From an uncultured Acetatifactor sp. (GTDB lineage Bacteria; Bacillota; Clostridia; Lachnospirales; Lachnospiraceae): DNA of 17,246 nucleotides. The stretch lies in NCBI GenBank assembly GCA_934394515.1, contig CAKRRU010000051.1, positions 1-17,246 of the forward strand. The letters are read 5' to 3'. Positions 2,432 to 17,154 of this stretch are shown piece after piece. How positions within the stretch are numbered: position 1 is the stretch's first letter; each line of letters starts with the position of its first letter. The notes under the pieces were generated by a model that worked only from the letters and a program-made list of their open reading frames with translations, was not told where the DNA came from and searched no databases. Made by a program: the position numbers and the translations under genes.

Positions 2432-3331
2432 TCAGTTCCGCTGCCAGCGTCCGGAAGCACCGCAGGGCAGTATCAGACCACTCTCAGTGACGGGGAGACC
2501 GATCTCCCCGGCTTCCACATGACCGCCGAACTTTTTCGTCAGGGTGGAATTCATCATATAGGACAGCACGGCGGGCTGTAATCCTGTGGTATAGGAATTG
2601 ATCAGGAAGAACAGCGCATCATCAGACAAAAGCTGTGCGGTCAGTCCCACGAAATCCCAGATATTGTCTTCTATTTTCCAGATTTCCCCCTTGGGTCCTC
2701 TGCCGTAGGAAGGAGGATCCATGATGATGCCGTCGTATTTGTTGCCGCGGCGGATCTCACGCTCCACGAACTTCATGCAGTCGTCCACCAGCCAGCGGAT
2801 GGGAGCATCGGCAAGCCCGCTGGCGGCAGCATTTTCCTTCGCCCAGCCGACCATACCCTTGGAAGCATCCACATGAGTGACCGCTGCTCCGGCAGCTGCG
2901 GCGGATACCGTGGCACCGCCGGTGTAGGCGAAGAGGTTCAGCACCTTTACAGGTCTGTCTGCCTCATGGATCAGGGTGGAGAACCAGTCCCAGTTCACCG
3001 CCTGCTCCGGGAACAGACCGGTATGCTTGAAGCTGAAGGGCTTCAGATGGAAGGTCAGAGGATCAGCCTTGCCGGGAGCTTCCTTCTGGAAAGGCAGAGT
3101 GTAATGGATCGCCCATTCATCCGGCAGATGGAAAAATTCCCATTCGCCGCCGCCCTTGGCACTCCTGTGGTAATGACCGTTTTTCTGTTTCCAGCCCTTA
3201 TGATCGTGAGGCGTCTTCCAGATGACCTGGGGATCCGGACGGACGAGAATATAATCTCCCCAACGCTCCAGTTTTTCTCCGCTGGACGTATCCAGCACTT
3301 CGTAATCTTTCCAATGATCTGCAATCCACAT
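2432..3331 (-). CDS. class I SAM-dependent methyltransferase, RlmI-like (COG1092 type)
   Basis: The product has 299 residues. The methyltransferase core begins near residue 130 with VLNLFAYTGGATVSAAAAG (SAM-binding motif I), followed by THVDASKGMVGWAKENAA (acidic residue binding the ribose). At about residue 204 comes IIMDPPSYGRGPKGEIW, the DPP-S/F motif of RNA (cytosine-5) and related methyltransferases. RlmI-type enzymes act on 23S rRNA. This protein is about 100 residues shorter than E. coli RlmI and shows no PUA domain; instead it has a short N-terminal beta-rich segment (MWIADHWKDYEVLDTSSGEK). The target base is therefore uncertain and no symbol is given. A purine-rich binding site (AGAAAGG on the minus strand, about 3341-3350) precedes the ATG. 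It reads toward the ORF6N gene and is separated from it by a terminator. Confidence 0.85.
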   Translation of the reverse strand: MWIADHWKDYEVLDTSSGEKLERWGDYILVRPDPQVIWKTPHDHKGWKQKNGHYHRSAKGGGEWEFFHLPDEWAIHYTLPFQKEAPGKADPLTFHLKPFSFKHTGLFPEQAVNWDWFSTLIHEADRPVKVLNLFAYTGGATVSAAAAGAAVTHVDASKGMVGWAKENAAASGLADAPIRWLVDDCMKFVEREIRRGNKYDGIIMDPPSYGRGPKGEIWKIEDNIWDFVGLTAQLLSDDALFFLINSYTTGLQPAVLSYMMNSTLTKKFGGHVEAGEIGLPVTESGLILPCGASGRWQRN

Positions 3332-3374
3332 ATATAATAAACCTTTCTGTTGTAAACTTGTGATTCCTCTTTAT

Positions 3375-3403
3375 AGAATATAATAGAAGAAAAACTTTTT
3401 CAA
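3375..3403 (-). promoter_or_regulatory. promoter of the methyltransferase gene
   Basis: Reading the minus strand, TTGAAA (3398-3403) and TATTCT (3375-3380) are separated by 17 bp. The predicted start point falls about 35-40 bp before the ATG. The -10 box is only 4/6 to consensus, so the call is moderate. Confidence 0.45.
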
Positions 3404-3473
3404 GGAATACTTGCATTGGCTGATATCGGCACACGGGAATCGTGTGTGCTTTGACCGGAAAATGCAGCAGGGA

Positions 3474-3520
3474 TAGCAAAATAACCAAATTTGAGTGGTG
3501 TAGATTTGGCTATTTTACTA
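3474..3520. repeat. imperfect 17-bp inverted repeat beside the Rpn promoter
   Basis: The left arm TAGCAAAATAACCAAAT (3474-3490) pairs with ATTTGGCTATTTTACTA (3504-3520), with two mismatches and a 13-nt centre. The right arm ends two bases before the TTGACA box of the downstream promoter. It could be a regulator site, or a terminator-like hairpin for transcripts entering from either side; neither arm is followed by a long T run. Confidence 0.55.
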
Positions 3521-3522
3521 CG

Positions 3523-3551
3523 TTGACAATTAAATATTCGTTTGCTATGCT
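3523..3551 (+). promoter_or_regulatory. strong sigma-A-type promoter before the Rpn gene
   Basis: A perfect TTGACA (3523-3528) is separated by 17 bp from TATGCT (3546-3551, 4/6). The AT-rich spacer and correct orientation make this the likely promoter of the Rpn-family gene at 3742, with a leader of about 185 nt. Confidence 0.65.
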
Positions 3552-3741
3552 CTATGCATAAGCAGATTTTCTATTTCGAATTTCTATATCAGCGAAAGCC
3601 GATGTCTATGACTTCAGAGGAATCCCTGCTTAACTACCCAATAATTACAATAGAGCAGGAGGAAGGCATAGAGTGGATTGAAATTCGATTCTGTGACGGT
3701 ATCGGTATTTTCTCCTGTGGAAAGTGCAAAGGAGAATGTGA

Positions 3742-4560
3742 ATGGCAAAACGATACGAAGAACTTACAATCGCAGATGACTTTATGTTCGGTAAAGTGAT
3801 GGAAGATATGGAACTTTGCCGGGATTCGTTGGAGTGTCTGTTACAGACACCAGTGGGAAAACTGGAAGGCATACAGACACAGCGGGGATTTCGATATACT
3901 TCGGATGGTAAACCGGTTCGCCTGGATATGTATGCAAGGGACAGGAAACGTGTCTACGATGCGGAGATGCAAAACCTGAATCACCAGTCGACAGAGAAAC
4001 TTGCACTGCCGAAAAGAAGCCGGTTTTATCAATCCACGATGGATACGGATCATCTTAGCAAAGGGAAATCTTATCGGGAATTACCGGAAGGAAGAGTATT
4101 ATTCCTTTGCACCTTTGACCCTTTTGGACTGGGATATGCGAAGTATTCTTTCCAGAACCGTTGTGAAGAAAACCTGGAATTGTGTCTGAAAGACGGTACT
4201 GAGAAGATTTTTTATAACTGTGTCAGTGATGCGAAGAATATACCGGAACATCTGAAAAAGTTATATGATTATATTAGAACCGGAAAGGTAGGAGATGACC
4301 TTACCCGGAGGATAGATGAGGCAGTAATTAAGGCCAGAAAGAATGAAGTGTGGAGGTCCGAGTACATGAAAGAATTATTACATGACGATGACATCAGGGA
4401 AGAGGGCAGAGAAGCTGGCAGGGTACAGGGAAGAGCAGAAGGTGAAAGCCTGCTGCTTGCACTGATTTCCCGAATGGCAGCGGGGGGAGATGCAGACAAG
4501 GCAGCACAGCTGGCAGACCCTAAAGTATTGAAAGCAATGCAAAAGAAGTATGGAATGTAA
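3742..4560 (+). CDS. Rpn-family PD-(D/E)XK nuclease / putative transposase
   Basis: The product has 272 residues. The N-terminus (YEELTIADDFMFGKVMED) and the nuclease core match the Rpn/recombination-promoting nuclease family, known in Clostridia as PD-(D/E)XK nuclease family transposase. The catalytic pattern is intact: D62 in VRLDMYARD, then E75 and Q77 in VYDAEMQN, that is D-x12-E-x-Q. The C-terminus carries the usual Gly/Glu/Arg repeats (REEGREAGRVQGRAEGE), followed by a short helical tail ending MQKKYGM. Related E. coli Rpn proteins are DNA endonucleases that promote RecA-independent recombination; whether this one moves DNA is unknown. AAAGGAG at 3728-3734 sits 7 bp before the ATG and fixes the start. 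It stands alone between its own promoter and a terminator. Confidence 0.85.
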   Translation: MAKRYEELTIADDFMFGKVMEDMELCRDSLECLLQTPVGKLEGIQTQRGFRYTSDGKPVRLDMYARDRKRVYDAEMQNLNHQSTEKLALPKRSRFYQSTMDTDHLSKGKSYRELPEGRVLFLCTFDPFGLGYAKYSFQNRCEENLELCLKDGTEKIFYNCVSDAKNIPEHLKKLYDYIRTGKVGDDLTRRIDEAVIKARKNEVWRSEYMKELLHDDDIREEGREAGRVQGRAEGESLLLALISRMAAGGDADKAAQLADPKVLKAMQKKYGM

Positions 4561-4573
4561 TAATACAAAATAA

Positions 4574-4608
4574 AGAAGAACGCACCGATCATACCGGTGC
4601 GTTCTTTT
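4574..4608. terminator. bidirectional intrinsic terminator
   Basis: A perfect 12-bp stem (AAGAACGCACCG at 4576-4587, CGGTGCGTTCTT at 4595-4606) encloses a 7-nt loop. TT follows on the plus strand, and a run rich in T follows on the minus strand. It sits between the convergent Rpn and merR-type genes and should stop both. Confidence 0.85.
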
Positions 4609-4612
4609 GCCG

Positions 4613-5392
4613 TTACAGCTTTATGGGAACGGCTATCTGCGTGATATAGTCCCCGGTATTTTCTCCCCGGCTTGGCGGACCTTCGAGATAAATTGAGCGG
4701 AACGGTCCCGTCATGCAGACATGATTTTCTTCCACGTACTTTGCCAGGGCGTGAAATGCTTTGGAAATCTCATCATAAGCGCCACGGAAATAAATACACA
4801 GTGCAGGTGTTTCCGCAAATTCCATCCGCTCAGGCCCTGTGAAGCTGCTCTCCATAGGGATACAGCACATCAGATCAAGTGTATCGGAATCCTGCGACAT
4901 CCGCATGGTAAACATCCGCGCAACCATAGACATCATACCGGTTCTCGCAGCAGCAATATAGGTTTCACGCAGACGATCCGAAGCATCGGCAATATCCCGG
5001 CATTGATACCGGCGGGCGTAACACACCTGCTGTGGAAGCGTCGTGCTGCGAACGGTCAGATCCCCATACCTGGCGGCACGCACCTGCAGCAGCTGAATAT
5101 TGCGGTCAAGTGCCGCCCGCAGATCCATCAGCCTTTGCAGATGGGCATCTATATTATCCGTACAGTAATAATAGTCCGCAATTTCATTCAGGGAGAGTCC
5201 CAGCGTCTGCAGGGACTTGATGGAACGTATCTGCGTCATATTATCTGCGGTATAGTAACGATATCTGGTGTTCTCATCCTTCACGGCGGGAGTCAGCAGC
5301 CCCTTTTCTTCATAGACCAGAATTGTTTTTCTGGTTACACCGAGTATTTTTGCTATTTCACCGATCTGAAACAGATTTTCATCTTTTTGCAT
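4613..5392 (-). CDS. MerR-family transcriptional regulator with GyrI-like effector domain
   Basis: The product has 259 residues. Residues about 8-34 form the MerR winged helix (FQIGEIAKILGVTRKTILVY, EEKGLLTP), followed by the wing RYRYYTADNMTQIRSIKSLQ. Residues about 75-105 form the dimer coiled coil. From about residue 108 onward the protein resembles the GyrI/BmrR-type ligand-binding domain (CIYFRGAYDEISKAFHALAKYVEENH, and RSIYLEGPPS). BmrR-like proteins bind lipophilic or cationic compounds and activate a promoter with an over-long spacer by twisting the DNA. Exactly such an operator lies just upstream (5424-5454). The binding site GAGGAAAA on the minus strand supports the ATG at 5390-5392. 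In many such systems the target is a divergent efflux gene; here the promoter leads into a surface-protein gene. Confidence 0.9.
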   Translation of the reverse strand: MQKDENLFQIGEIAKILGVTRKTILVYEEKGLLTPAVKDENTRYRYYTADNMTQIRSIKSLQTLGLSLNEIADYYYCTDNIDAHLQRLMDLRAALDRNIQLLQVRAARYGDLTVRSTTLPQQVCYARRYQCRDIADASDRLRETYIAAARTGMMSMVARMFTMRMSQDSDTLDLMCCIPMESSFTGPERMEFAETPALCIYFRGAYDEISKAFHALAKYVEENHVCMTGPFRSIYLEGPPSRGENTGDYITQIAVPIKL

Positions 5393-5423
5393 CGTACTTT
5401 TCCTCGTTTTTTGTCGAAACTGT

Positions 5424-5454
5424 TTGACTCGTCCCCCAGGGGACGATGTACCAT
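5424..5454 (+). promoter_or_regulatory. MerR-type operator/promoter, facing away from merR
   Basis: TTGACT (5424-5429) and TACCAT (5449-5454) are separated by 19 bp, the over-long spacing typical of MerR-activated promoters. The spacer holds the palindrome TCGTCCCC-CA-GGGGACGA (5429-5446), two perfect 8-bp half-sites around CA. Transcription would run rightward and start near 5461. No terminator is visible before the surface-protein ATG at 5714. Confidence 0.8.
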
Positions 5455-5455
5455 T

Positions 5456-5484
5456 AATATAGCAGAATGTAAACAGACTGACAA
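5456..5484 (-). promoter_or_regulatory. promoter of the merR-type gene
   Basis: On the minus strand TTGTCA (complement of 5479-5484) is followed after 17 bp by TATATT (complement of 5456-5461). The transcript would start at the edge of the MerR palindrome, so the regulator probably also controls itself. A GAGGA ribosome binding site lies between start point and ATG. Confidence 0.6.
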
Positions 5485-5713
5485 GATAAAAAAGCCGGTC
5501 TGTCTATCAGGGTAGCTGTCGATGCCGGTGCAAAGTCTGCCATCAAGCCCGGAAAAAGTGCCACCTTATGTGTGGAAATGTAATTCACGACAAAATCGGG
5601 TCAATTCATGCAAAAAATAGTTTTATGAGGGTAAAAAGAGTTACAATGTTTATAAATAATGGATTTACGATATACGGAATGACAGGCGTAAGGCGCCAAC
5701 CAAGGAGGAACTT
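5461..5713 (+). other. long 5' leader of the surface-protein gene
   Basis: About 250 nt separate the predicted MerR-controlled start point from the surface-protein ATG. The leader holds a short inverted repeat (ACAGAC 5473-5478 / GTCTGT 5498-5503), a 31-codon stopless stretch of coding character that ends at the TAA at 5581-5583, an AT-rich segment with TACAAT at 5642-5647 that could be a second -10 box without a good -35, and a GGCG/CGCC hairpin (5685-5697). The ribosome binding site AAGGAGG is at 5702-5708. I could not match it to a riboswitch class I know. Confidence 0.4.
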
Positions 5714-5717
5714 ATGA
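5568..5717 (+). CDS. possible 49-codon upstream ORF overlapping the surface-protein start
   Basis: ATG at 5568 opens a 49-codon frame whose TGA (5715-5717) overlaps the next ATG (5714-5716), the arrangement seen in translational coupling. The C-terminal part is basic (GMTGVRRQPRRNL). Only a weak purine run (GGAAAAAG) stands before the ATG. The peptide has no recognisable domain, and the frame may be open by chance, since the leader is AT-rich with few stops in this phase. Conservation of the frame in related leaders would be needed to accept it. Confidence 0.2.
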   Translation: MCGNVIHDKIGSIHAKNSFMRVKRVTMFINNGFTIYGMTGVRRQPRRNL

Positions 5718-8700
5718 AGAAACGAGTATTGAGTTTGTGCATGGCATTTGTTCTCAGCTTTTCCATGATGCCCATGACGGCGTTTGCGGAAGGAACAGAT
5801 GCAGTGACGGAACAGCAGGAGACACAGGGCAGTGAACTTCCTGGGACTGTGGACACCACGGACGGCTCCGCCACCGTTGAAGACATCAGCGGCGGCAATG
5901 CTGGCACAAAGGATGCAGAGGTGGAAGCAGTACAGGCCCTCATCGATGCTCTGCCGGAGGAAGTAACCGCAGATAATGCGGACGGACTCCAAGCACAGCT
6001 GATGGCGATTGAAGAGGCCCTGACGGTACTGGACAAGGCGCAGACTGCCAGGCTGAATATGACCCGTCTGGAGAATGTTTATGCTGCTCTGAACGTGGCG
6101 GTAGCGGCACAGGCTACTACGCATGTAGACCATTCCTTCTGCGGTGCGACGAACTGCCAAGGTCATGGATCCTACAGCACTCACCACGAAGTTGTGAGCA
6201 ACTGGATACCGCTGTCATATGACGAAACCACCGGCCAGCTAAAGAAGGACGGAAATATTTGGACTTCGACTTCTGCCGGTTATATACTGCCGAAGGGCAA
6301 CTATTATCTCGAAACTGACCTTAAAACGGATGCTACCATTACCAATCAGTACATAAGCGATGAGATAAATCTCTGCCTGAACGGTCACAGCATCACAGCG
6401 GCGGGCAACTTTGACGTCATCACGCAGACGAAGGGAACGTTCCGTCTTTGCGAATGCAAGCAGGATACAGGCAAGATTACCCATCAAGCAGAGACTGCCG
6501 GTAGGGGCGTATGTTCGAATGCTGGTTTATTCTACATGTACGGCGGCACGATCACCGGCAACAATGCGGGCAACAAACTTGGCGGAGGTGTTTATGTCGC
6601 TAACTACTTCCATATATTCGGTGGTACAATCTCTAATAATCAGGCTGATTCAGGTGGTGGTGTGTATGGAAAGAAGACTGTCAATATAAATGGTGGTTTC
6701 ATCCAAAACAACACTGCTACTTCAGGTGACGGTGGCGGCGTATACATTGGTGGTAAGATGACGATGAACATGTACGACGTTACGATCACCGACAACAAGG
6801 CGAGCGGCAACGGCGGTGGTGTATACCTCGGGGATAAATGCGCTATCGGAATGTCCAACGTTTCGATCACCGGCAACAATGCGGGCAGCAACGGCGGTGG
6901 TATGATGCTGCAGACCTCGCAATATATTGATATGCGAAACAAGGTGGAGATTACCAGAAACACGGTTGAAAACAACGCAAACAATCTTTATTTGAAGGAT
7001 AGTGGGAAAATCAATATCAAAGGCGCATTGACCGATTCAAAGATTGGCGTGAGCCTGTCGATTGATGAGAACGATTATGTCGTTGTCGCTAAGGGCAGTT
7101 CTTATTCACTGACATCCGGAGATAAGGATGTCTTCGCCCTCGATGATGCTGGTGCTGGCTATGAGTGGATTGATGTGGATAACAGTGTTGCTTTTCGGAA
7201 AGGAAACCCGCACAAGCATGCCATCTGCGGCAATGCGGACTGCACCGAGGCTGATCACAGCAATGTGGTGTGGAAAGGCATCAATGACCTCGATGAAATT
7301 ACGGAAGATGGCAACTATTATCTGAAGCAGTCAGTGACTCTCTCCTCCACATGGACTTGCGGTCGTAATGTAAACCTCTGCCTGAACGGCAACAGTATCA
7401 CAATGTCGGAAGCGTACGATGCCATTAGGGTAGTTTCTGACTGCACCTTCACACTCTGCGACTGTAACGGCAGTAATAATGGCAACGGTAAGATCACTCA
7501 CAAAAGCGGAAAGAACGGCAGTGGCGTTGTAGTAAATGGCAGCTTCACCATGTACGGCGGCAGCATCACCGGCAACGAGGCTTCTGGCAACGGCGGTGGT
7601 GTGAATGTAGGCGTAAACGGCACCATGACCGTAGGCGGCAGTGCACAGATCACCGACAATGGTGACAGCAATGTTTATTTGCCCGATGGTCAGTTCATCA
7701 CGGTTGACAAGGCGTTGAACGAAAATGCCAAGATCCATGTGACCACTGCGGCAGAAATCGCTGAGGGCGCATATGCTGTCATTGCCGAGGGCACAGACGA
7801 CCATGCACTGACGGACAATGACCTGAAGGCTTTCACTAGCGACAGCAGCTATACGGAGAAGTTGCTGGACAACGGCATCATCTTTATTAACGGTGATCTG
7901 CATGAACATGGCATCTGTGGCAAGGAGGGCTGCAGCGAGGCTGGACATGGAAATGTGGCATGGACAGGTGTCAGCACACTCGATGAAATTAAGAGTGCGG
8001 GGTACTATTATCTGAAAAACGATATTGAACTGACGAATGGCAGTGTGTGGGAGCCTGCAAACGGTGTAGTGCTCTGCCTGAACGGTCACAGCATTACGCA
8101 GATGACACATACTGCGGACAGAAGCCTCAATGTCATTAATGTCAAGAACGGCAACACCTTCACACTGAGCGACTGCAAAGGAGGAGCAGGAGCTTATGGC
8201 AAGATTACCCATAAAGACGGGGAAAAAGGTAGTGCTATGGAGGTGGCGTCCGGTAGCAGCTTCAATTTCTACGGTGGCTGCATTACAGGCAACGTTTCTG
8301 AATACAATACAGTGTCGGTATATGGAAATTTTTATATGTATGACGGCGAAATCAAGGGCAACGCAAGCTCCGCATACACCACTGTGTTTGTTTTTGGTAA
8401 CGGTGGCACATTCAACATGTCCGGCGGCAGGATCACCGGGAATAGTGTTAAGCAATATGGCGGTGTAGGTGTGAATGGTGCTTTTACTGTCAGTGGCGAT
8501 GTGAAGATTACCGGCAACGTGATAGGTGGAACGAAAGGCGCTGATGGTCTGTATACTGGCGGAACAACGAGCAACGTCTATCTGCTCAGCGGTAGGGAGA
8601 TCACCGTCGGCGGTGCACTGAACGATTCCGCAAGCATTGGTGTGACGAGTGAAGCAGTTCCTGACGATAGCACCCCTGTGACTATCGCTACGGCGGTGGA

Positions 8701-11700
8701 TAACTGGATCAAAGACGGTAATTTTACTGCTGACAACAGCTTATATAAGGTGAATGTGTCTGCGGACGGCAAGACCGTAAACCTCGGCTTGCACGAACAC
8801 CAGTGGAAAGTGAGAGTGAAAACAGGCGCAGGAAATATTCTTGAAGAGTACTGCGACGTTGCAGGCTGTACCACCGCAGGCGGCACGCTGACACTGAAAG
8901 CGGACGATCAGAAATATAGCGGTGAGCCTTACGATTACGCAAAATGCGTGACAACTGATGACTGGAAACATACTTCAGCTATGGGAAAAGTCTTCTATAC
9001 GGACAGCACGGACACTGAAATTGCTGCGCCTGTCAAGCCGGGTACTTACTATGCCAATGTCACCGTGGACGGTGTAACTGCCAAGCAGGCGTTCAGCATT
9101 GACCGGTGGAAGTTGATTGACAGCGACTTCGAGTATAAAGCACCGGATAACCTGATCTACGACGGCAAGGCTAAGGAAGCCACAGTAACATCGAAAAAGA
9201 CAGGCTTTGGACAATTATTACAATATACCGTGTTATATTTTGACGAGGATTACAACAAGGTTGAAAATCCGACAGATGCCGGTACCTATGAGGTGAAGGT
9301 TCAAGTCGCACGGAGTGATGCATACGAAGCTGGCCAAATAATGAACTCGGATTGGACATTTACCATTGCACCGAAGCACGTCACCATTACAGGCATCTCA
9401 GCAGATAACAAGGTCTATAACGGCAACGCTGACGCTGACATTACCGGAAAGCCTGAGATCAGCGGTCTTGTAGCCGGAGATGAGAATTATGTGACAGTTG
9501 AGGACGCAAATGCTACGGCAAAATTTGCAGACGCAGATGCGGGCACTGCTAAGACAGTTACCTTCAACGGTTATGCCCTTACCGGCACAAAGGCAGGCAA
9601 CTACAAGCTTTCACAGCCCGCCAGCGTGACAGCAGACATCACCCCCAAGGAGTTGATGATCACAGGTGTGACGGTTAAGGATAAGACTTACGATGGCACA
9701 ACGACAGCGGCTGTCACAGGCGTGACATTCAATGGTCTTGTGAACAGCGAGACCCTGACCAAGGACGGGGATTATACGGTAACCGGTAACTTTGCGGATG
9801 CAGCTGCCGGTGCAAATAAGGATGTCGCTGTCACAGTTAAACTTACGGGCAGCGTTAAGAACTACACTCTCAGCGACACAAGGTATACGAAGAACGGCTG
9901 CCAGATTGTAAAGGCTGCCGCAGCAGCTCCTCCTGCTGTCAGGGATCTTACCATTATCAACGGCAGCACTACAATTTACACGGTGATGCTTCCGCAACTT
10001 CTGCCGTCACTGGTATCACCCGGAGAATATGGTAGTCTTACTTATGAAAAACCGACGCTGAATATTACAGACAGCAGCTATCATGGCTTTGCAGAAGTCA
10101 GAAGTGGTATTGAGGATGGAAAGCTGGCACTGAAATTTACAGACACTGGCACTACGGAAGGTTCTATAGGAACTATTACGGTGACGGTTCATTCAGCCAA
10201 TTACGAGGATATCACCCTGACGATCAACATCCTGGCAACAGCTAAGATCGTTCCGCAGCTGGAAGGCACACTGAAGCTTACTCCTTCCGAGATCACCTAC
10301 GGTGAAAAGCTGTCCAATATCACTATTTCCGGCACAATGACGGCAAACGGCAGGAAGATTGCCGGTACATTCGCATGGCAGAACCTGAACGATGTTCTGA
10401 ATGCGGGCAATCAGCAGGCTGCATGGAAATTCACACCGGAAGATACACAGACCTATGCAGAGACCACAGATATTACGACAGTCAAGGTCAACAAGGCAGA
10501 GCAGAGCGGTGCGGTCGGCATGTATAACTACACTTATAACGAGACACCGGCTACGCCGACTCTGACAGAACAAAAGGGCGACCCTGACGCTAAAGTGACC
10601 TACTATTACAGCACTACCAGAACCAACAGCGGCGGTACGGAATGGAAGGACATCACCCCCACTACGCTGAAGGCCGGTACCTACTATATGTACGCAGTGA
10701 TCGGTGAGACTGGGAACTATAAGGCCTACACCACAGAGGCTAAGGCGTTTACGGTATGGACGGCTGAGCCGGCCTACACCAAGCCTTCGGGTCTGACGGC
10801 GAAATATGGACAGAAGCTTAGCAAGATCACGCTGTCCAATCCTGCGGGCAATATGTCCGGTACATGGAGCTGGGAGGCACCTGATACAGTGATCGACAAG
10901 ACCGGCAAAGTAAGCTATGACGCTGTTTTTACGCCGGATGATAAGAATTATAAGGAAGTGGCCGATACCATTGAGATAACAGTCACACCGGGCGACGGCA
11001 GGAATCTTGCCACGGAGGAGCTGACACTGGCATTCAATGACAGTGCTGACCATACTTATACACCTGACTGGTCGGGTCTTCCTGCCGGACAGACATGGAA
11101 TTATAAGTGTGGATCCAGCATCAGCAACGGATCCAATGCCACACTTACCAAGCTGAATGTGTCTGCGGCAGACGGTGGACTGACCTATGCAGTCTCCGAT
11201 GGCCAGGTAGCTGACAAGATTACTGTCATACTGAAAGCATGCTGCAGCAACTATAAGGACTTCACCATTACGCTGAACATCCGGATCACCAAGGCAGCTC
11301 CTGCCGGGGAACCGAAATACACCCTGATCACCACGGGGGGCAAGACCCTGGCGGATGCAGGACTGACGTTAAACGGCAGTACCCTGAATCCTGCAGACGG
11401 TACCCTGGAGTGGGTGGGTACGGACGGAAATGTGTTGTCCGATGACACTGAGGTGAAAGTCAACACGACCTACAAGTGGCGATTCACCCCTGCGGATACC
11501 AATTACAACAGCCTGACCGGTGAAATCGAACTGTACCATGTGGATGCTCCGGCGGTCACTGCACAGCCCAGGAGTGTATCTGTGACAGTAGGAGAGAAAG
11601 CGACCTTTGAAGTAACTGCAACAGGTACGGACGTAACCTATCAGTGGAAGATCGACAGGAATGACGGTAATGGATTTACAGACATCACCGGAGCCACCGG

Positions 11701-12376
11701 TGCGGTCTATACCACAGGAGTAACGGACAAGGATTGCGATGGATTCAAGTATCAGTGCGTCATCCGTAACGCAGCCGGTTCTGTTACAACGGATACCGTA
11801 GTATTGACGGTGAAAGAGAAGCTGTATGAGATCATTGATGGTGCGAACAGCTCCTGGACCCAGAGTACGGACGGAAGCGGAAGTATCAGGATCCGGGGAA
11901 ATGGTGAAATTTCCAAATTTGTGAATGTAAAGGTGGATGGAACGATTGTTGATCCTGCGAACTATATAGTTACAGAAGGTTCTACCATCATCGAATTAAA
12001 GGCAGATTACTTGAAGACGTTGTCGGAAGGCACTCACACCTTTGAAATCATCTGGACGGACGGCACTGCAGGCACCAGCTTTACGGTAGCCAAAAATACA
12101 TCCGGCGCTCCCGGGAACAATGATAACAACAAGGATGAAAACAACGATAATAACGGCAACAACGACAATGGCAATGACAGTAACAACGGCAGCAATAATG
12201 GAAACAATAACGCCGGCAATAACGGCATCAGCAATACAGCAGGCAATGACAACACGGTAGTGCAGATTCTGGACGTTTCTCCCAATACCGGAGATGCTTC
12301 CGGCATTTGGATCGCTCTATTTGTAGTATCTGCCGTAGGACTGGCAGTCATGCTGGTAAGAAGGAAGAAACAATAG
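5714..12376 (+). CDS. giant sortase-anchored surface protein with beta-helix and MBG/YDG/Ig-like domains
   Basis: The product has 2220 residues. It starts MKKRVLSLCMAFVLSFSMMP and ends its signal peptide at TAFAEG. A helical region follows (about 75-135). Residues 137-1020 hold three modules, each opening with a His/Cys motif (near 140, 500, 730) and a 'NYYL...LCLNG.SIT' strand; modules 1 and 2 then have GGGVY/GGxITGN beta-helix repeats, module 3 a weaker version. A fourth Cys pair is at 1047/1052. Then come a bacterial MBG-like domain (about 1130-1220), two YDG domains (about 1225-1313 and 1316-1403), two related about 100-residue units (1405-1508 and 1760-1862), further MBG-like domains between them, an Ig-like domain (1947-2032) and a beta domain (about 2035-2125). 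An Asn/Gly-rich spacer (2135-2181) leads to SPNTG (2189-2193), a hydrophobic helix and RRKKQ. This suggests a wall-anchored adhesin or glycan-binding protein; no catalytic site was recognised. AAGGAGG lies 5 bp before the ATG. Confidence 0.9.
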   Translation: MKKRVLSLCMAFVLSFSMMPMTAFAEGTDAVTEQQETQGSELPGTVDTTDGSATVEDISGGNAGTKDAEVEAVQALIDALPEEVTADNADGLQAQLMAIEEALTVLDKAQTARLNMTRLENVYAALNVAVAAQATTHVDHSFCGATNCQGHGSYSTHHEVVSNWIPLSYDETTGQLKKDGNIWTSTSAGYILPKGNYYLETDLKTDATITNQYISDEINLCLNGHSITAAGNFDVITQTKGTFRLCECKQDTGKITHQAETAGRGVCSNAGLFYMYGGTITGNNAGNKLGGGVYVANYFHIFGGTISNNQADSGGGVYGKKTVNINGGFIQNNTATSGDGGGVYIGGKMTMNMYDVTITDNKASGNGGGVYLGDKCAIGMSNVSITGNNAGSNGGGMMLQTSQYIDMRNKVEITRNTVENNANNLYLKDSGKINIKGALTDSKIGVSLSIDENDYVVVAKGSSYSLTSGDKDVFALDDAGAGYEWIDVDNSVAFRKGNPHKHAICGNADCTEADHSNVVWKGINDLDEITEDGNYYLKQSVTLSSTWTCGRNVNLCLNGNSITMSEAYDAIRVVSDCTFTLCDCNGSNNGNGKITHKSGKNGSGVVVNGSFTMYGGSITGNEASGNGGGVNVGVNGTMTVGGSAQITDNGDSNVYLPDGQFITVDKALNENAKIHVTTAAEIAEGAYAVIAEGTDDHALTDNDLKAFTSDSSYTEKLLDNGIIFINGDLHEHGICGKEGCSEAGHGNVAWTGVSTLDEIKSAGYYYLKNDIELTNGSVWEPANGVVLCLNGHSITQMTHTADRSLNVINVKNGNTFTLSDCKGGAGAYGKITHKDGEKGSAMEVASGSSFNFYGGCITGNVSEYNTVSVYGNFYMYDGEIKGNASSAYTTVFVFGNGGTFNMSGGRITGNSVKQYGGVGVNGAFTVSGDVKITGNVIGGTKGADGLYTGGTTSNVYLLSGREITVGGALNDSASIGVTSEAVPDDSTPVTIATAVDNWIKDGNFTADNSLYKVNVSADGKTVNLGLHEHQWKVRVKTGAGNILEEYCDVAGCTTAGGTLTLKADDQKYSGEPYDYAKCVTTDDWKHTSAMGKVFYTDSTDTEIAAPVKPGTYYANVTVDGVTAKQAFSIDRWKLIDSDFEYKAPDNLIYDGKAKEATVTSKKTGFGQLLQYTVLYFDEDYNKVENPTDAGTYEVKVQVARSDAYEAGQIMNSDWTFTIAPKHVTITGISADNKVYNGNADADITGKPEISGLVAGDENYVTVEDANATAKFADADAGTAKTVTFNGYALTGTKAGNYKLSQPASVTADITPKELMITGVTVKDKTYDGTTTAAVTGVTFNGLVNSETLTKDGDYTVTGNFADAAAGANKDVAVTVKLTGSVKNYTLSDTRYTKNGCQIVKAAAAAPPAVRDLTIINGSTTIYTVMLPQLLPSLVSPGEYGSLTYEKPTLNITDSSYHGFAEVRSGIEDGKLALKFTDTGTTEGSIGTITVTVHSANYEDITLTINILATAKIVPQLEGTLKLTPSEITYGEKLSNITISGTMTANGRKIAGTFAWQNLNDVLNAGNQQAAWKFTPEDTQTYAETTDITTVKVNKAEQSGAVGMYNYTYNETPATPTLTEQKGDPDAKVTYYYSTTRTNSGGTEWKDITPTTLKAGTYYMYAVIGETGNYKAYTTEAKAFTVWTAEPAYTKPSGLTAKYGQKLSKITLSNPAGNMSGTWSWEAPDTVIDKTGKVSYDAVFTPDDKNYKEVADTIEITVTPGDGRNLATEELTLAFNDSADHTYTPDWSGLPAGQTWNYKCGSSISNGSNATLTKLNVSAADGGLTYAVSDGQVADKITVILKACCSNYKDFTITLNIRITKAAPAGEPKYTLITTGGKTLADAGLTLNGSTLNPADGTLEWVGTDGNVLSDDTEVKVNTTYKWRFTPADTNYNSLTGEIELYHVDAPAVTAQPRSVSVTVGEKATFEVTATGTDVTYQWKIDRNDGNGFTDITGATGAVYTTGVTDKDCDGFKYQCVIRNAAGSVTTDTVVLTVKEKLYEIIDGANSSWTQSTDGSGSIRIRGNGEISKFVNVKVDGTIVDPANYIVTEGSTIIELKADYLKTLSEGTHTFEIIWTDGTAGTSFTVAKNTSGAPGNNDNNKDENNDNNGNNDNGNDSNNGSNNGNNNAGNNGISNTAGNDNTVVQILDVSPNTGDASGIWIALFVVSAVGLAVMLVRRKKQ
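6122..8857 (+). repeat. coding repeat modules inside the surface protein
   Basis: Three related modules begin near 6122, 7211 and 7901. Each carries a Cx4C motif, the CTCTGCCTGAACGG block (near 6371, 7376, 8072) and a GGCAAGATTACCCA-like block encoding GKITH. A 23-bp stretch beginning GATCACCGGCAAC is exact at 6550-6572 and 6865-6887, and GCAACGGCGGTGGT recurs near 6808, 6890 and 7587. Such repeats could recombine and change protein length between strains. Confidence 0.75.
12116..12259 (+). repeat. Asn/Gly/Asp-rich low-complexity spacer
   Basis: AAY and GGY codons dominate this stretch (residues about 2135-2181, for example NNGNNDNGNDSNNGSNNGNN). It lies directly before the sorting signal and most likely acts as a flexible cell-wall-spanning linker. 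The repetitive codons make slippage and length variation likely. Confidence 0.75.
12278..12373 (+). other. cell-wall sorting signal SPNTG + membrane helix + basic tail
   Basis: The last 32 residues read SPNTGD, then a hydrophobic stretch of about 20 residues (IWIALFVVSAVGLAVMLV) and RRKKQ. This is the three-part sortase substrate signal with (S/N)PxTG in place of LPxTG, a form recognised by some clostridial class B-like sortases. No sortase gene lies in the window. Confidence 0.85.
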
Positions 12377-12387
12377 TTTCGCATTAC

Positions 12388-12428
12388 AAGCCCCGCCGCA
12401 GGGACAAAACTCTGTGGCGGGGCTTTTT
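12388..12428 (+). terminator. strong intrinsic terminator after the surface-protein gene
   Basis: A GC-rich stem of about 13 bp (AAGCCCCGCCGCAG pairing with CTGTGGCGGGGCTT, one G-U pair) is followed by TTTTT. It ends 4 bases before the regulatory element of the next operon, so it separates the two units cleanly. Confidence 0.93.
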
Positions 12429-12432
12429 GCGG

Positions 12433-12495
12433 CTTTCACACATTACAGCGATAGTAAACTAATTTGTTGATGAATCGGAGATTCTTGTATATAAT
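12433..12495 (+). promoter_or_regulatory. promoter of the two-component operon with 38-bp shared element (copy A)
   Basis: TTGATG (12467-12472) and a perfect TATAAT (12490-12495) are 17 bp apart. The 38 bp at 12433-12470, beginning CTTTCACACATTACAGCGAT and running into the -35 box, are repeated with only two changes at 15429-15466 before putP. The core ATTACAGCGATAGTAA (12442-12457) resembles a cre site and is centred about -52 from the predicted start. The leader to the response-regulator ATG is about 80 nt. Confidence 0.8.
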
Positions 12496-12583
12496 AACTC
12501 ATAGCATATGATAGAAGTATTTTTTTCAAGATTTACTTGAGAGGGATTGGCAGATTAACGGGATCTGCGGAAGGGACGGCAGA

Positions 12584-13312
12584 ATGCAGTGGAGGATCGC
12601 GGTCTGTGACGATGACCGGGCGGATGCGGAGAGCATCGGAGCGGCTCTGACAGAATATCAGCAGGATACAGGAGCGCAGTATTCCGTCCGGATTTTTCAG
12701 AGTGGGAAAACTCTGGAATATGAAGTGGAGGACGGACAACTGTTCGACCTGCTGTTTTTGGATATCGAACTAGGGGATGAGGACGGATTTATGCTGGCAA
12801 GGAGACTGCAGAGCAGGCTCCCGGCAGCGCTGCTTATTTTTGTCTCTTCCTATGAAAAATATGTCTACGATTCTTTTAAATTACAGCCCTTTCGCTTTCT
12901 GCCCAAAAGATGCCTGACACAGATGCTTCCGGAGACCCTCTCGGCGGCAGTGGCGGAACTGAAACGCAGGGAGAACCGGTTCCTGCTTGTGGAGAACGGG
13001 CAGGGAGTGGAGAAGATTCCATTGGAAGCAATAGTTTATATCCGGCAGCAGGGAAAGTATGCCTGTATCGTAAAGGAGAACGGAAACCGGAACAGAGTGC
13101 GGAGAACCCTGAAAAGCCTGGTGGAGGAACTGCCGGAGAAACAATTTTTGCAAATTGACAGAGGGTATTTATGCAATGTGACGAAGGTGACACAGTTAAA
13201 AAACGACAAACTGACGCTGGCAACAGGGGAAGAACTCTATGTCAGTTCAGGCAGAATGCGGGAATTAAAGGATAAAGTCATGGAGTACTGGACCGGGGAG
13301 AAAAAGATATGA
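12584..13312 (+). CDS. LytTR-family (AgrA-like) response regulator
   Basis: The product has 242 residues. The receiver domain (1-120) has the acidic pocket D9-D10-D11 (VCDDDRADAES), phospho-acceptor D60 (LLFLDIELGDEDG), the Ser switch at about S88 (FVSSYEKYVYDSF) and K108 (FLPKRC, where YLxKP is usual). Residues about 130-240 form the LytTR DNA-binding domain (FLLVENGQGVEKIPLEAIVY, RRTLKSLVEELPEKQFLQID, then RGYLCNVTKV). LytTR proteins bind pairs of direct repeats and often control adhesion, autolysis, peptide signalling or solute uptake. The GGAAGGG run near 12569 supports the start. It is first in an operon, with its stop overlapping the kinase start (ATGA). The regulon is not known; the direct repeat at 14650 is one candidate target. 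Confidence 0.93.
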   Translation: MQWRIAVCDDDRADAESIGAALTEYQQDTGAQYSVRIFQSGKTLEYEVEDGQLFDLLFLDIELGDEDGFMLARRLQSRLPAALLIFVSSYEKYVYDSFKLQPFRFLPKRCLTQMLPETLSAAVAELKRRENRFLLVENGQGVEKIPLEAIVYIRQQGKYACIVKENGNRNRVRRTLKSLVEELPEKQFLQIDRGYLCNVTKVTQLKNDKLTLATGEELYVSSGRMRELKDKVMEYWTGEKKI

Positions 13313-14556
13313 CAGGTGTGACGCAAATGCATATGATAACCTTACTGTGCAGCTTTCATGAAGCATTTTGGATGGTGTGGTGGATGAAACAAAACCATGT
13401 GATCAGATCGCTGGGAAGCCGGGAGTGGCCGAGAAGCTTTCTGACGGGAGGTGCCGGCTGTCTTTTTTTGACTTTCGTGTACGGAATTGTATGGTACGGT
13501 ATGCGGGAGACATTATCCTGTCTTCCGGCAATCCTCTTTTTTGCTGTTTCTTTCAGCCTTTTGTGGGAATGCGAAGAGAAGGAAAGCTTTCTGTATGCCG
13601 CAGGGTATTTATTGGGATTGGAAGTGACATTGTGGTTTGCCGGAAGAATGCTGCAGCACGGATTGCTGATCGGACAGGAGGCATGGCTGGGGGTGAACTT
13701 GTTTGGAATCTTGATGCTGCAATCCGGCAGGCTGCGGGAATACAGGCAACAATTGCTGGAAATTTTCGGAACCATGGGAGCAGCTTTTTTCCTGACATTA
13801 TTTTTCAGCAATTTTTTCTGGGATATGCTGCGTGGAGAACGGATAAAAGAGTATTTTTATCTGGCCTGTCTGACAACGGTGCTGGCTGCAACCTATTTTT
13901 ATGCACAGAAGGCGCGGATGCGGGAGCAGATGGAGTATCTGGACCTGCAAAACGGACTTTTGGAGCAGGGGTATCGTAAGACATATGATTTTTACACGGA
14001 AAATGCGAAGCTGTACCATGACATGCACCATCATCTGAGGGCAGTGGAACAGATGATTGCAAAGGGGGATGATGCCGGGGCACTGGAGTACATTGCCAGT
14101 GTACAGGAACCGGTTCGGACAGCAGCAGTACCGGTATGTACCGGAATGGATCTGGTGGACACTGTATTATATGAAACGAAAGAACGGGCTGAGGCGAAAA
14201 ATATCGACCTGCAGATCGAGGCATCCCTGTTTTCAGGTATGGAAAGAGCGCAGAAAAAAGATATATGCGCATTGTTTGCCAATCTGACGGAAAATGCGCT
14301 GGAAGCGGCAAAAAGCAGGATACGGATTACGACCAGGACAGTGCCCGGGATGCTGTTGCTGGAGATCTTAAATGATTACAGAGAGAAACCGGAGATTTCG
14401 GAAGGACATATGCAGACCGGGAAAGCGGATCGTACGAAACACGGCTGGGGACTGCGGATCGTAGAACAGATTGTGAGAAAATATGAGGGGCAGATCGATT
14501 ATGAAATAGAGGAAGAGACGGGGGATTTCCGGGTTCGTGTCTGGCTGAACCTGTGA
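13309..14556 (+). CDS. GHKL-type (AgrC/HPK10-like) sensor histidine kinase
   Basis: The product has 415 residues. The N-terminal half (about 5-200) has five or six membrane segments and no clear extracellular sensor domain. A coiled-coil stretch (about 200-230) leads to the phospho-accepting histidine H237 in YHDMHHHLRAVEQ, the variant of the H-box used by AgrC-like kinases. The ATP-binding domain has the N-box (FANLTENALEAA, N325/N329) and G-box (KHGWGLRIVEQIVRKYEGQI, G379/G381). It should phosphorylate the regulator encoded just before it, with which it shares an ATGA overlap. Such kinases commonly read peptides or membrane events, but no autoinducer-peptide gene was found nearby, so the signal is unknown. 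Confidence 0.92.
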   Translation: MTGVTQMHMITLLCSFHEAFWMVWWMKQNHVIRSLGSREWPRSFLTGGAGCLFLTFVYGIVWYGMRETLSCLPAILFFAVSFSLLWECEEKESFLYAAGYLLGLEVTLWFAGRMLQHGLLIGQEAWLGVNLFGILMLQSGRLREYRQQLLEIFGTMGAAFFLTLFFSNFFWDMLRGERIKEYFYLACLTTVLAATYFYAQKARMREQMEYLDLQNGLLEQGYRKTYDFYTENAKLYHDMHHHLRAVEQMIAKGDDAGALEYIASVQEPVRTAAVPVCTGMDLVDTVLYETKERAEAKNIDLQIEASLFSGMERAQKKDICALFANLTENALEAAKSRIRITTRTVPGMLLLEILNDYREKPEISEGHMQTGKADRTKHGWGLRIVEQIVRKYEGQIDYEIEEETGDFRVRVWLNL

Positions 14557-14649
14557 TCCGGGTCAGGCACGACGGATTTTCAATGTAAGCTTTACAGACG
14601 TGACCCCAAAAGTTGATTTCCGGACGTTGTAATTACGCAGACGTAAAAT

Positions 14650-14713
14650 TTCGAGGTCAGAAAACAGCTATTCGAGGACAGGAGAAAACAAAGAAGGTAC
14701 TGTCTGCTATTAT
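14650..14713 (+). promoter_or_regulatory. 21-bp direct repeat upstream of a -35-poor promoter
   Basis: TTCGAGGTCAGAAAACA (from 14650) and TTCGAGGACAGGAGAAAACA (from 14671) are direct repeats with a 21-bp period, two helical turns. A TATTAT -10-like box (14708-14713) follows, with only AAAACA at the -35 position. This is the layout of a promoter that needs an activator. The neighbouring LytTR regulator is a natural candidate, but the repeats do not fit the published LytTR consensus closely. Confidence 0.35.
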
Positions 14714-14822
14714 GAAGATGTAGCTTAAAAAATGACTTATAAAGCGCAAATTACTTATTGGGATGACGTTGGAATTCCGGAAAATCATTCGGATCCAACG
14801 GAAAACTGACGGAGGGAGAAGA

Positions 14823-15401
14823 ATGAATAAAGTCAAAACGGCTGTAAAATGTGTTGGTGTGGCAGCAGCATATTTGTTACTGCTGATGTTCAGTAAACTG
14901 TTGGAATTCTGGATTTTTACTTCAAAACTGACTTATGAGGAATTGCTAAACCTGACATGGAATTGGGAAGCTATGCCGGAGAGCTTTCTGTTTACCTTCC
15001 CTTATGGCTTGGGAATCTTCCGGGTGCTTCTGATTACACTGCTGCTGTGTCTGCTGATCCATGGCAGGGATTTCCGGATTCGAAGAGAAAAATCTGTATT
15101 ACAATGTCTCAGGATGCATGCGGGAACTTTTCTTTTACAGGGAGCTACACTCACCGGGGTGGTCATCGGAGCCTGTTATGCAAGACTGGATACTCGCTTG
15201 TCGATGCTGCTTTCTGACGGATATTTTTACTTTAGCGGGACACATGCTCTGATGGGAGCAATGCAACTGACAGATCCATTGGCGGAAATATGGACGATTT
15301 TTACTGTGTTGGTATATCTGTACGAATCAGACTTCCTGATGGGGCTGGCAGCCTACGTGTTCTATGAATTGCTTCGCGTGTGTTTTGACAGCAAGTTGTA
15401 A
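14823..15401 (+). CDS. small integral membrane protein of unknown function
   Basis: The product has 192 residues when read from ATG 14823. I chose this start because GGAGGGA (14811-14817) lies 5 bp upstream. An in-frame ATG at 14763 would add 20 residues but has no ribosome binding site. The chain has about four or five hydrophobic segments: about 9-27, 60-80, 100-120 and 145-185. Between the first two lies a polar loop with TYEELLNLTWNWEAMPESF, and after the second an Arg/Lys-rich loop (HGRDFRIRREKS), which suggests it faces the cytosol. I recognise no family. It lies between the two-component operon and putP, in the same direction, after a 266-bp gap, so it may be a target or accessory of the signalling pair. 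Confidence 0.75.
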   Translation: MNKVKTAVKCVGVAAAYLLLLMFSKLLEFWIFTSKLTYEELLNLTWNWEAMPESFLFTFPYGLGIFRVLLITLLLCLLIHGRDFRIRREKSVLQCLRMHAGTFLLQGATLTGVVIGACYARLDTRLSMLLSDGYFYFSGTHALMGAMQLTDPLAEIWTIFTVLVYLYESDFLMGLAAYVFYELLRVCFDSKL

Positions 15402-15428
15402 TAAGATACACATGAACACAATTATATA

Positions 15429-15491
15429 CTTTCACACATTACAGCGATAACAAACTAATTTGTTGACGAGGAGCCGGTTATTGTTTATAAT
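15429..15491 (+). promoter_or_regulatory. promoter of putP with 38-bp shared element (copy B)
   Basis: TTGACG (15463-15468) and a perfect TATAAT (15486-15491) are 17 bp apart. The 38 bp at 15429-15466 match copy A at 36 positions and sit at the same distance from the -10 box. The core ATTACAGCGATAACAA (15438-15453) matches the cre consensus WTGNNARCGNWWWCAW at all defined positions but one. AACAAA-CTAA-TTTGTT (15449-15464) is a perfect inverted repeat overlapping the -35 box. Confidence 0.8.
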
Positions 15492-15546
15492 AAAGCGTAT
15501 CACTGTATACAACAAAACTATTCGGACTGCATCTGAGGAAGAAATT

Positions 15547-15600
15547 ATGATTCCAGAATGTAATTTGGTGTTTTTCAGACAAGTGTATTTCGAATGGTAA
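15547..15600 (+). CDS. possible 17-codon leader peptide before putP
   Basis: GAGGAAG (15535-15541) lies 5 bp before ATG 15547, and the frame runs MIPECNLVFFRQVYFEW to TAA at 15598-15600. It ends 6 bp before the putP ribosome binding site (GAGGAGG, 15607-15613), so ribosomes leaving it could reinitiate at putP. It lies fully inside the leader of the putP transcript. Its rich Phe/Tyr/Trp content is noted, but no attenuator hairpin was found. It may be chance. Confidence 0.35.
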   Translation: MIPECNLVFFRQVYFEW

Positions 15601-15618
15601 ACTTACGAGGAGGATATT

Positions 15619-17154
15619 ATGACAGGAAATACGCTTGGATGGGTAATTGTGGCATTCGTGCTGTACTTACTCATGATGATCGCTATCGGGGCGTTCTATG
15701 CAAAGGGAAACAATAATTCCGAAGATTACTTTTTGGGTGGCAGAAAGCTGAACGGTTTTGTCGCTGCGCTGTCCGCACAGGCATCGGATATGAGCGGATG
15801 GCTGCTGATGGGACTGCCGGGTGCTATTTATTTAACCGGTGTCGGCGGTGACGGCTGGATTGCCATCGGACTGTTTATCGGAACGACACTGAATTGGCTG
15901 TTCATTGCCACGAAGCTGCGCAGATATACGATCCGCGCTAATAATTCCGTGACGCTGCCGACTTATTTTGAGAACCGTTTCCATGATGAGAAGAAGGTAT
16001 TGATGACGGTTTCTTCCGTTACTATTGTGGTATTTTTCCTGGTGTATTGTGCTTCCGCACTTTCTGCCGGCGGTCAGCTGTTTGAGTCAGTGTTCGGTAT
16101 TGATTATCATGTGGCACTGACCATCGGTGCGCTGGTAGTACTGGTGTATACGTTCCTGGGCGGATTCACCGCAGTATGCGTGACAGACTTTATCCAGGGC
16201 ATGCTGATGCTGGTCGGTATTCTGGCAGTACCTTTGTTTGCCTATCATTTCCTGACCGGCAATGGAACCACGCTGGCAGCAGGACTGGAAGCCGGAGGTG
16301 CCGACAGCACCAATTTCCTGAACCTGATGAAGAACGGTGACGGCAGCAACAATATCGTCAGCGTGATCTCCGGCCTCGGCTGGGGACTGGGATATTTCGG
16401 TATGCCTCATATCCTTGTGAGATTTATGGCAGTCCGGGATGAAAAGGAAATGACCAAGTCCAAGGCTACAGCCATCAGCTGGGTGGCATTATCCCTGGGA
16501 TTTGCAGTGTTTATCGGTATTCTGGGCAGAGCTTATCTGCCGGAGCTAGTGAACGGCAATAATGAGAAGGTATTTATCGAGATGATCAAGAAAGTATTCA
16601 CCGTGGAGATGCGGGCTCCTTTCATTGCAGGATTGTTCCTCTGCGGTATCTTGGCGGCGATCATGTCCACGGCGGATTCCCAGCTGTTGGTCAGCGCCTC
16701 CAGCGTAGCGGAAGATATTTTCAAGGGCTTGATCAAAAAGGATGCGGATGACAAGACTGTAATGAATGTCAGCCGTGCTACTGTACTGGCAGTCGCAGTA
16801 CTGGCTTATATCATTGCGTGGAACCCGAACAACACTGTTATGGGACTGGTATCCAACGCATGGGCAGGTCTGGGTGCTGCTTTCGGACCTCTGGTAGTGA
16901 TGTCCTTATATTGGAAGAGAACCAACTTCCCCGGCGCAGTGGCAGGTATCGTCACCGGCGCACTGACCGTTATTGTCTGGGACTACATTCCTCTCGTAGG
17001 CGGACAGACCCTCGGCAAGGCAACCGGCCTGTATTCGCTGGTAGTGGGATTTGCACTTGGTCTCATCGCCATCGTGGCAGTCAGCCTGGCTACCAAGGCT
17101 CCTTCGGAAGAGATGTTGCAGGAGTTTGAGGATGTGAAGGCGAATCGTTTGTAA
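15619..17154 (+). CDS. putP: sodium/proline symporter (SSS family)
   Basis: The product has 511 residues (E. coli PutP has 502) with about 13 membrane segments. The sodium-site stretch in helix 2 is intact: ALSAQASDMSGWLLMGLPGA, where D57, S59 and G60 line up with E. coli D55, S57 and G58. The helix-9 motif IMSTADSQLLVSASSVAEDI carries S350 and T351, matching the second sodium-ligand pair S340/T341. The protein imports L-proline with Na+ for osmoprotection, carbon/nitrogen supply or Stickland-type metabolism. GAGGAGG at 15607-15613 supports the start. Its promoter carries the same 38-bp element as the two-component operon. No putA-like proline catabolic gene lies nearby. The 92 bases after its stop show no gene and no clear terminator. 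Confidence 0.93.
   Translation: MTGNTLGWVIVAFVLYLLMMIAIGAFYAKGNNNSEDYFLGGRKLNGFVAALSAQASDMSGWLLMGLPGAIYLTGVGGDGWIAIGLFIGTTLNWLFIATKLRRYTIRANNSVTLPTYFENRFHDEKKVLMTVSSVTIVVFFLVYCASALSAGGQLFESVFGIDYHVALTIGALVVLVYTFLGGFTAVCVTDFIQGMLMLVGILAVPLFAYHFLTGNGTTLAAGLEAGGADSTNFLNLMKNGDGSNNIVSVISGLGWGLGYFGMPHILVRFMAVRDEKEMTKSKATAISWVALSLGFAVFIGILGRAYLPELVNGNNEKVFIEMIKKVFTVEMRAPFIAGLFLCGILAAIMSTADSQLLVSASSVAEDIFKGLIKKDADDKTVMNVSRATVLAVAVLAYIIAWNPNNTVMGLVSNAWAGLGAAFGPLVVMSLYWKRTNFPGAVAGIVTGALTVIVWDYIPLVGGQTLGKATGLYSLVVGFALGLIAIVAVSLATKAPSEEMLQEFEDVKANRL

Follow-up and report, generated by a model that had tools for sequence, protein, structure and literature searches.

Gene order at the methyltransferase-putP locus

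The stretch of DNA analysed here (17,246 nt; hereafter the window) carries a gene for a SAM-dependent methyltransferase on the minus strand (2432..3331; Pfam PF10672) and a putP-like sodium:solute symporter gene on the plus strand (15619..17154; PF00474). Both of the closest genomes found, G001 and G007, encode a symporter 97% identical to it. The name putP and the proline substrate were given in the preliminary description, and the family assigned here is sodium:solute symporter (PF00474). A close putP (E <= 1e-200) is present in 11 of 138 genomes of the genus. In eight of these 11 putP loci the methyltransferase gene, the ancestral divergent neighbour of putP, is adjacent to it, with about 175-340 bp between the aligned ends; in G001 the two genes lie 285 bp apart. 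The locus of G050 extends no further than about 205 bp upstream of putP, which is too short for a gene-order call. The gap between the two genes measures 12,287 bp in the window; in G007 it is about 9.5 kb long, and in G542 about 1.2 kb. At its left edge lies the predicted methyltransferase promoter region (region A; 3373..3413, minus strand), which consists of TTGAAA, 17 bp and TATTCT, and the boxes and the 17-bp spacing are the same in the window, G001 and G007.

The DNA next to region A (cargo 1; 3414..12432) is absent between the methyltransferase gene and putP in G001. According to the ORF and Pfam analyses, it contains a PDDEXK-type gene (3742-4560; match below the Pfam cut-off), a MerR-type gene (4613-5392, minus strand) and a gene for a surface-type protein of 2220 aa (5714-12376). 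The gap of G007 is occupied by a gene for a surface-type protein related to that of the window and by a DUF3800 gene, and the cargo of G542 differs again, with three short ORFs (90, 73 and 92 aa; L082 313-1507). The methyltransferase-putP gap looks like a repeated insertion site. In addition, a 42-bp promoter/leader stretch of the window (3540-3581) is 86% identical (E = 2e-6) to one in G007 (L038 15392-15433). Both stretches lie inside the gap, before the PDDEXK-type gene in the window and before the DUF3800 gene in G007; here, too, one promoter precedes cargo of different kinds. This leader was also considered as a possible repeat family; G007 gave the sole match, a single one, among the six genomes searched, and the idea was dropped.

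Upstream of putP, on the plus strand, lies a second cargo, an operon encoding a LytTR response regulator (12584..13312; PF04397 and PF00072), a GHKL-type sensor histidine kinase (13309..14556; PF14501 and PF02518) and a 192-aa ORF with no Pfam match (14823..15401). A scan of the plus strand from 12584 to 15800 listed one terminator-like site, which falls within the third ORF (15007-15025), and no further site downstream; therefore, read-through into putP is possible, although the scan lists about as many sites in shuffled sequences. The protein database holds 16 full-length relatives of the kinase at 70-96% identity. The best match in the genomes (overlapping sets of 61, 397 and 138, with no more than four and no more than 13 candidates per genome scored in two of the scans) is only 38% identical, and no kinase relatives were found in viral contigs. 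This 38% identical kinase belongs to a related operon of G001 (L041 9548-12195), in which LytTR regulator and kinase genes are followed by a 193-aa ORF resembling, by eye, the 192-aa ORF of the window. The G001 operon has a different promoter and adjoins a gene read as prfA (release factor). In an alignment of 14 of the kinases, most of the variation falls in the first 60 or so residues.

A repeated promoter and its conservation

A 38-bp element located before the LytTR operon (12433-12470) recurs before putP (15429-15466). The preliminary description had reported 36 matches in 38 positions, and pairwise comparison within the window confirmed this identity: a 30-base pattern derived from the repeat matches twice in the window (0 expected from 200 shuffles), and self-BLAST aligns the two copies over 65 bp at 83% identity (E = 1e-12). 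The promoter boxes are also as described, with a -35 box TTGATG (12467-12472), 17 bp and TATAAT (12490-12495) in copy 1, and TTGACG (15463-15468), 17 bp and TATAAT (15486-15491) in copy 2. The flanking DNA had been called unrelated on both sides, which is right for the left flanks. However, the right flanks are related, and the similarity runs past the 38 bp and through the -10 box, giving a promoter-sized repeat of 74 bp at 80% identity. We refer to the 74-bp copies, both on the plus strand, as B1 (copy 1; 12433..12506) and B2 (copy 2; 15429..15502). They rank as the top two of six promoter-like sites in a scan of 12300-15800, a count that equals the shuffle mean of 6.0.

In both G001 and G007, the element occurs once (up to three mismatches), each time as part of the putP promoter. 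TTCTTGTATATAATAA in copy 1 matches the putP promoters of both genomes exactly, and the window shares CGTATCACTGTATACAA, downstream of copy 2, with both of them. Copy 2 is thus the predicted orthologous putP promoter, and the 38-bp repeated element is its upstream half. An inverted repeat is present in copy 2, and the same test finds none in copy 1, in G001 or at that place in G007. Among the 11 genomes with a close putP, four (PutP 78-79% identical) keep only the surroundings of the -35 box and the TTGTATATAAT stretch, and five have promoters different from the G001/G007 type. An Rfam scan of the window at the gathering threshold gave no match.

The preliminary description had further proposed that the element marks a regulon and recurs before other genes, and had suggested a motif search of related genomes. 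In the relatives searched, the element proved conserved before putP, and the regulon was not borne out. At up to three mismatches the element was found in two of 146 genomes, including G001, and in one of 397 evenly drawn genomes of the family, again G001, which is a member of both of these overlapping sets. When the genome collection was scanned for exact matches to a 21-base core, which would not catch the G007 variant, one locus was returned, in the uncultured Lachnospiraceae MAG that is G001. With a single copy at up to three mismatches in each of G001 and G007, there are no operator copies before several unlinked genes in either; therefore, no wider regulon appears to exist in these two genomes. 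A relaxed core followed by TATAAT matched in 64 of 138 genomes of the genus, mostly with three mismatches, and the reversed-pattern control matched in 17 (counted by hand from the table). These matches were considered as regulon members and set aside as probable general promoters, because they include the putP promoters of G001, G007 and G032, and because the only other match with at most one mismatch, located before a gene read as aldolase in G068, lacks the upstream half. The 21-base core gave no match in viral contigs, the whole window none in the plasmid collection (near mode), and the segment 12380-12600 none in the phage collection. Meanwhile, a left-half pattern of the element matches exactly in three viral contigs (L001, L002 and L003). 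No paper recognised as dealing with the 38-bp element was found in the literature search.

The expectation that the element would be conserved above background in relatives was upheld, before putP in G001 and G007 only. Between the window and G001, the element is identical at 36 of 38 positions, compared with 176 of 262 four-fold sites of putP (67%; p = 2e-4), and the 19 bases after it, with 13 identities, are not above the four-fold sites. The corresponding values for G007 are 35 of 38 and 180 of 264 (p = 0.002). A similar contrast exists between the two copies of the window, which agree at 36 of 38 positions in the element and at 10 of 19 in the spacer that follows (p = 4e-4). The preservation of the element beside a diverged spacer suggests that copy 1 has been kept by selection and is probably a working promoter, although the spacer of copy 1 could have changed by block replacement instead of drift. 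In this way, a conserved 38-bp control element of the symporter gene has been marked.

Origin of the promoter before the LytTR operon

Directly abutting B1 is a stretch that putatively represents the methyltransferase promoter region a second time, in decayed form (A'; 12501..12539, minus strand). Its assignment is of moderate strength, and it spans no more than about 39 bp of AT-rich sequence. The spacer of A' is 15 bp, compared with 17 bp in region A of the window, G001 and G007. None of 2000 shuffles reaches the score of A' against the window's own region A (3373-3413), and against the G001 and G007 versions alone the shuffle p values are 0.003 and 0.037, respectively. When overlapping segments of the window and of three loci of relatives (27,139 in all) were compared with region A of the window, G001 and G007 together, A' ranked first, scoring 83 against 75 for the next segment and 65 for the next within the window; this score was attained by five of 20,000 shuffles. 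Another segment of the window came close in a scan with a single sequence (30, against 31 for A'), but its match fell outside the promoter block. A 15-base core of region A, picked after both copies had been seen, has a single exact match in each of G001 and G007, which in either genome lies at the methyltransferase promoter. The window contains the core two times, against an expectation of 0.01 at up to one mismatch. At one mismatch, the core is found at three further places in G001 and two in G007. The likeness of 12501-12539 to the methyltransferase promoter is new here.

As read from the sequence, the order in the window would be methyltransferase-A-cargo 1-B1-A'-cargo 2 (the LytTR operon)-B2-putP. 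Both edges of the intergenic region are thus duplicated, in the order A...B-A'...B, the A' part being of moderate strength. G001, with one element and one exact core of region A, shows the state of one A and one B presumed to be ancestral. The junction B1-A' reads as a circular permutation of the ancestral intergenic A-B, an arrangement that a tandem copy, or a circle integrated via recombination within B, would produce. What the preliminary description had missed is that copy 1 seems to have been duplicated from the putP promoter and to lie in a methyltransferase-putP intergenic region that was copied and rearranged. We consider it reasonably probable that the putP promoter region was duplicated with the intergenic region and that one copy now heads the LytTR operon. 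In an ancestor, the intergenic region would have been copied in tandem, either by simple duplication or by a circle that integrated by homologous recombination within the promoter. The first copy of the region would then have taken up the surface-protein cargo and the second the LytTR/GHKL operon. Transcription of this operon would start at B1, which is presumably active and in which the 38-bp element, the 17-bp spacer and TATAAT are all preserved. The leftward copy, A', would have decayed beside this intact B1. Among the 74 columns of the promoter alignment, column 48 is the only one in which the two copies of the window side together against G001 and G007; therefore, the duplication need not be recent or confined to the lineage of the window, and it could date from around the time when the species of the window, G001 and G007 separated.

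The proposal in the preliminary description that the LytTR operon and putP are under common control is plausible, the element being conserved before putP and kept in copy 1. A protein would bind the 38 bp, and the LytTR operon would likely answer to the controls of putP. Because the two promoters appear to share ancestry, this shared control would probably have been inherited and not be part of a wider gene network. A bolder version of the duplication, which we regard as decidedly improbable, is that the space separating the divergent promoters serves as a cassette slot, where cargo circles bounded by both promoters recombine into the promoter. If so, each new cargo operon would arrive wired to the putP element, and tandem occupation as in the window would result.

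Other explanations of the repeat were weighed against this duplication. A small mobile or freely copied promoter might have landed before the LytTR operon, the likeness of A' to the methyltransferase promoter being a matter of chance. B1 is indeed promoter-sized, but A' directly abuts B1 and tops all scanned segments, and G001 and G007 contain no family of copies; we consider this rather unlikely. As for copies within a genome before non-homologous genes, the window has two, before unrelated operons, and G001 and G007 have one each. A dedicated regulator that recognises the 38 bp in front of several operons, with selection for co-regulation acting on the LytTR operon and putP as two of its targets, would account for the constraint on the element but not on the spacers in both copies, and for their common promoter layout. 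It is at odds with the single copy before putP in each of G001 and G007, with the one positive genome of the 397 being G001 itself, and with the related LytTR operon of G001, which has no copy of the element, and we judge it improbable.

The LytTR regulator itself could bind the element and control both its own operon and the adjoining putP. G007, however, keeps the element and has no kinase match at E <= 1e-20, and the related operon of G001 does not carry the element, for which reasons the LytTR system is unlikely to be the ancestral regulator of the element. In addition, no pair of sites resembling the LytTR consensus in the 38 bp stands out above the window background. We consider control of this kind very improbable. 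Even harder to credit is that the LytTR operon forms a mobile unit of 3 kb, with the 38-bp repeats as its ends (att-like or a target duplication). The operon is flanked by direct repeats, and the cargo of the gap differs among the window, G007 and G542; nevertheless, the ORFs between the copies include no integrase or transposase gene, and the repeat has no sharp right end and fades over 74 bp as a promoter does.

Relation to known systems

Mobile promoters and promoter propagation in prokaryotes were reportedly treated by Matus-Garcia et al. in 2012. In the relevant part of another report, short repeats are assumed to act as mobile promoters (PMC8049555), which would speak for the mobile-promoter explanation. 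The window resembles such cases in having a promoter-sized sequence in more than one copy before different genes. It differs in that there are two copies here and one in each relative searched, and in that copy 1 is joined to part of the neighbouring promoter, an indication that the intergenic region was duplicated as a whole. Horizontal regulatory transfer, as outlined in a section of PMC9944727, involves regulatory DNA that swaps its neighbour gene and thereby creates new wiring. The regulatory DNA of the window likewise gains a new neighbour gene, but, compared with what that section describes, a local duplication suffices here and no transfer between strains is needed. Events of both kinds, the copying of promoters and horizontal regulatory transfer, are already known, and the window is a new instance in which the rearrangement is unusually legible. 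A near-identical repeated promoter need not imply a regulon, and a variable signalling operon can gain regulation by duplication of a resident promoter region, not by evolution of a new site.

LytTR systems with a transporter target are represented by BtsS/BtsR and by YpdA/YpdB, according to the portion of PMC5552118 that covers them. The control of the transporter gene btsT by BtsS/BtsR, like the position of the operon next to putP, lends some support to control of putP by the LytTR regulator. As in these systems, the LytTR two-component operon of the window adjoins a transporter gene. In contrast to the systems as presented there, the kinase of the window has a GHKL domain, the element has no distinctive paired sites, and the element persists in G007 without a close relative of the kinase. 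A LytTR-type pair is found around 12539-12562, in the leader and outside the element; it scores 13, a value reached by 0.06% of 137,732 pairs in the window. Meanwhile, the predicted leader of the LytTR mRNA (12502-12590) folds into two hairpins (-20.4 kcal/mol; z = -3.3 compared with shuffles), the first of which is the CAAG-N5-CTTG dyad of A'.
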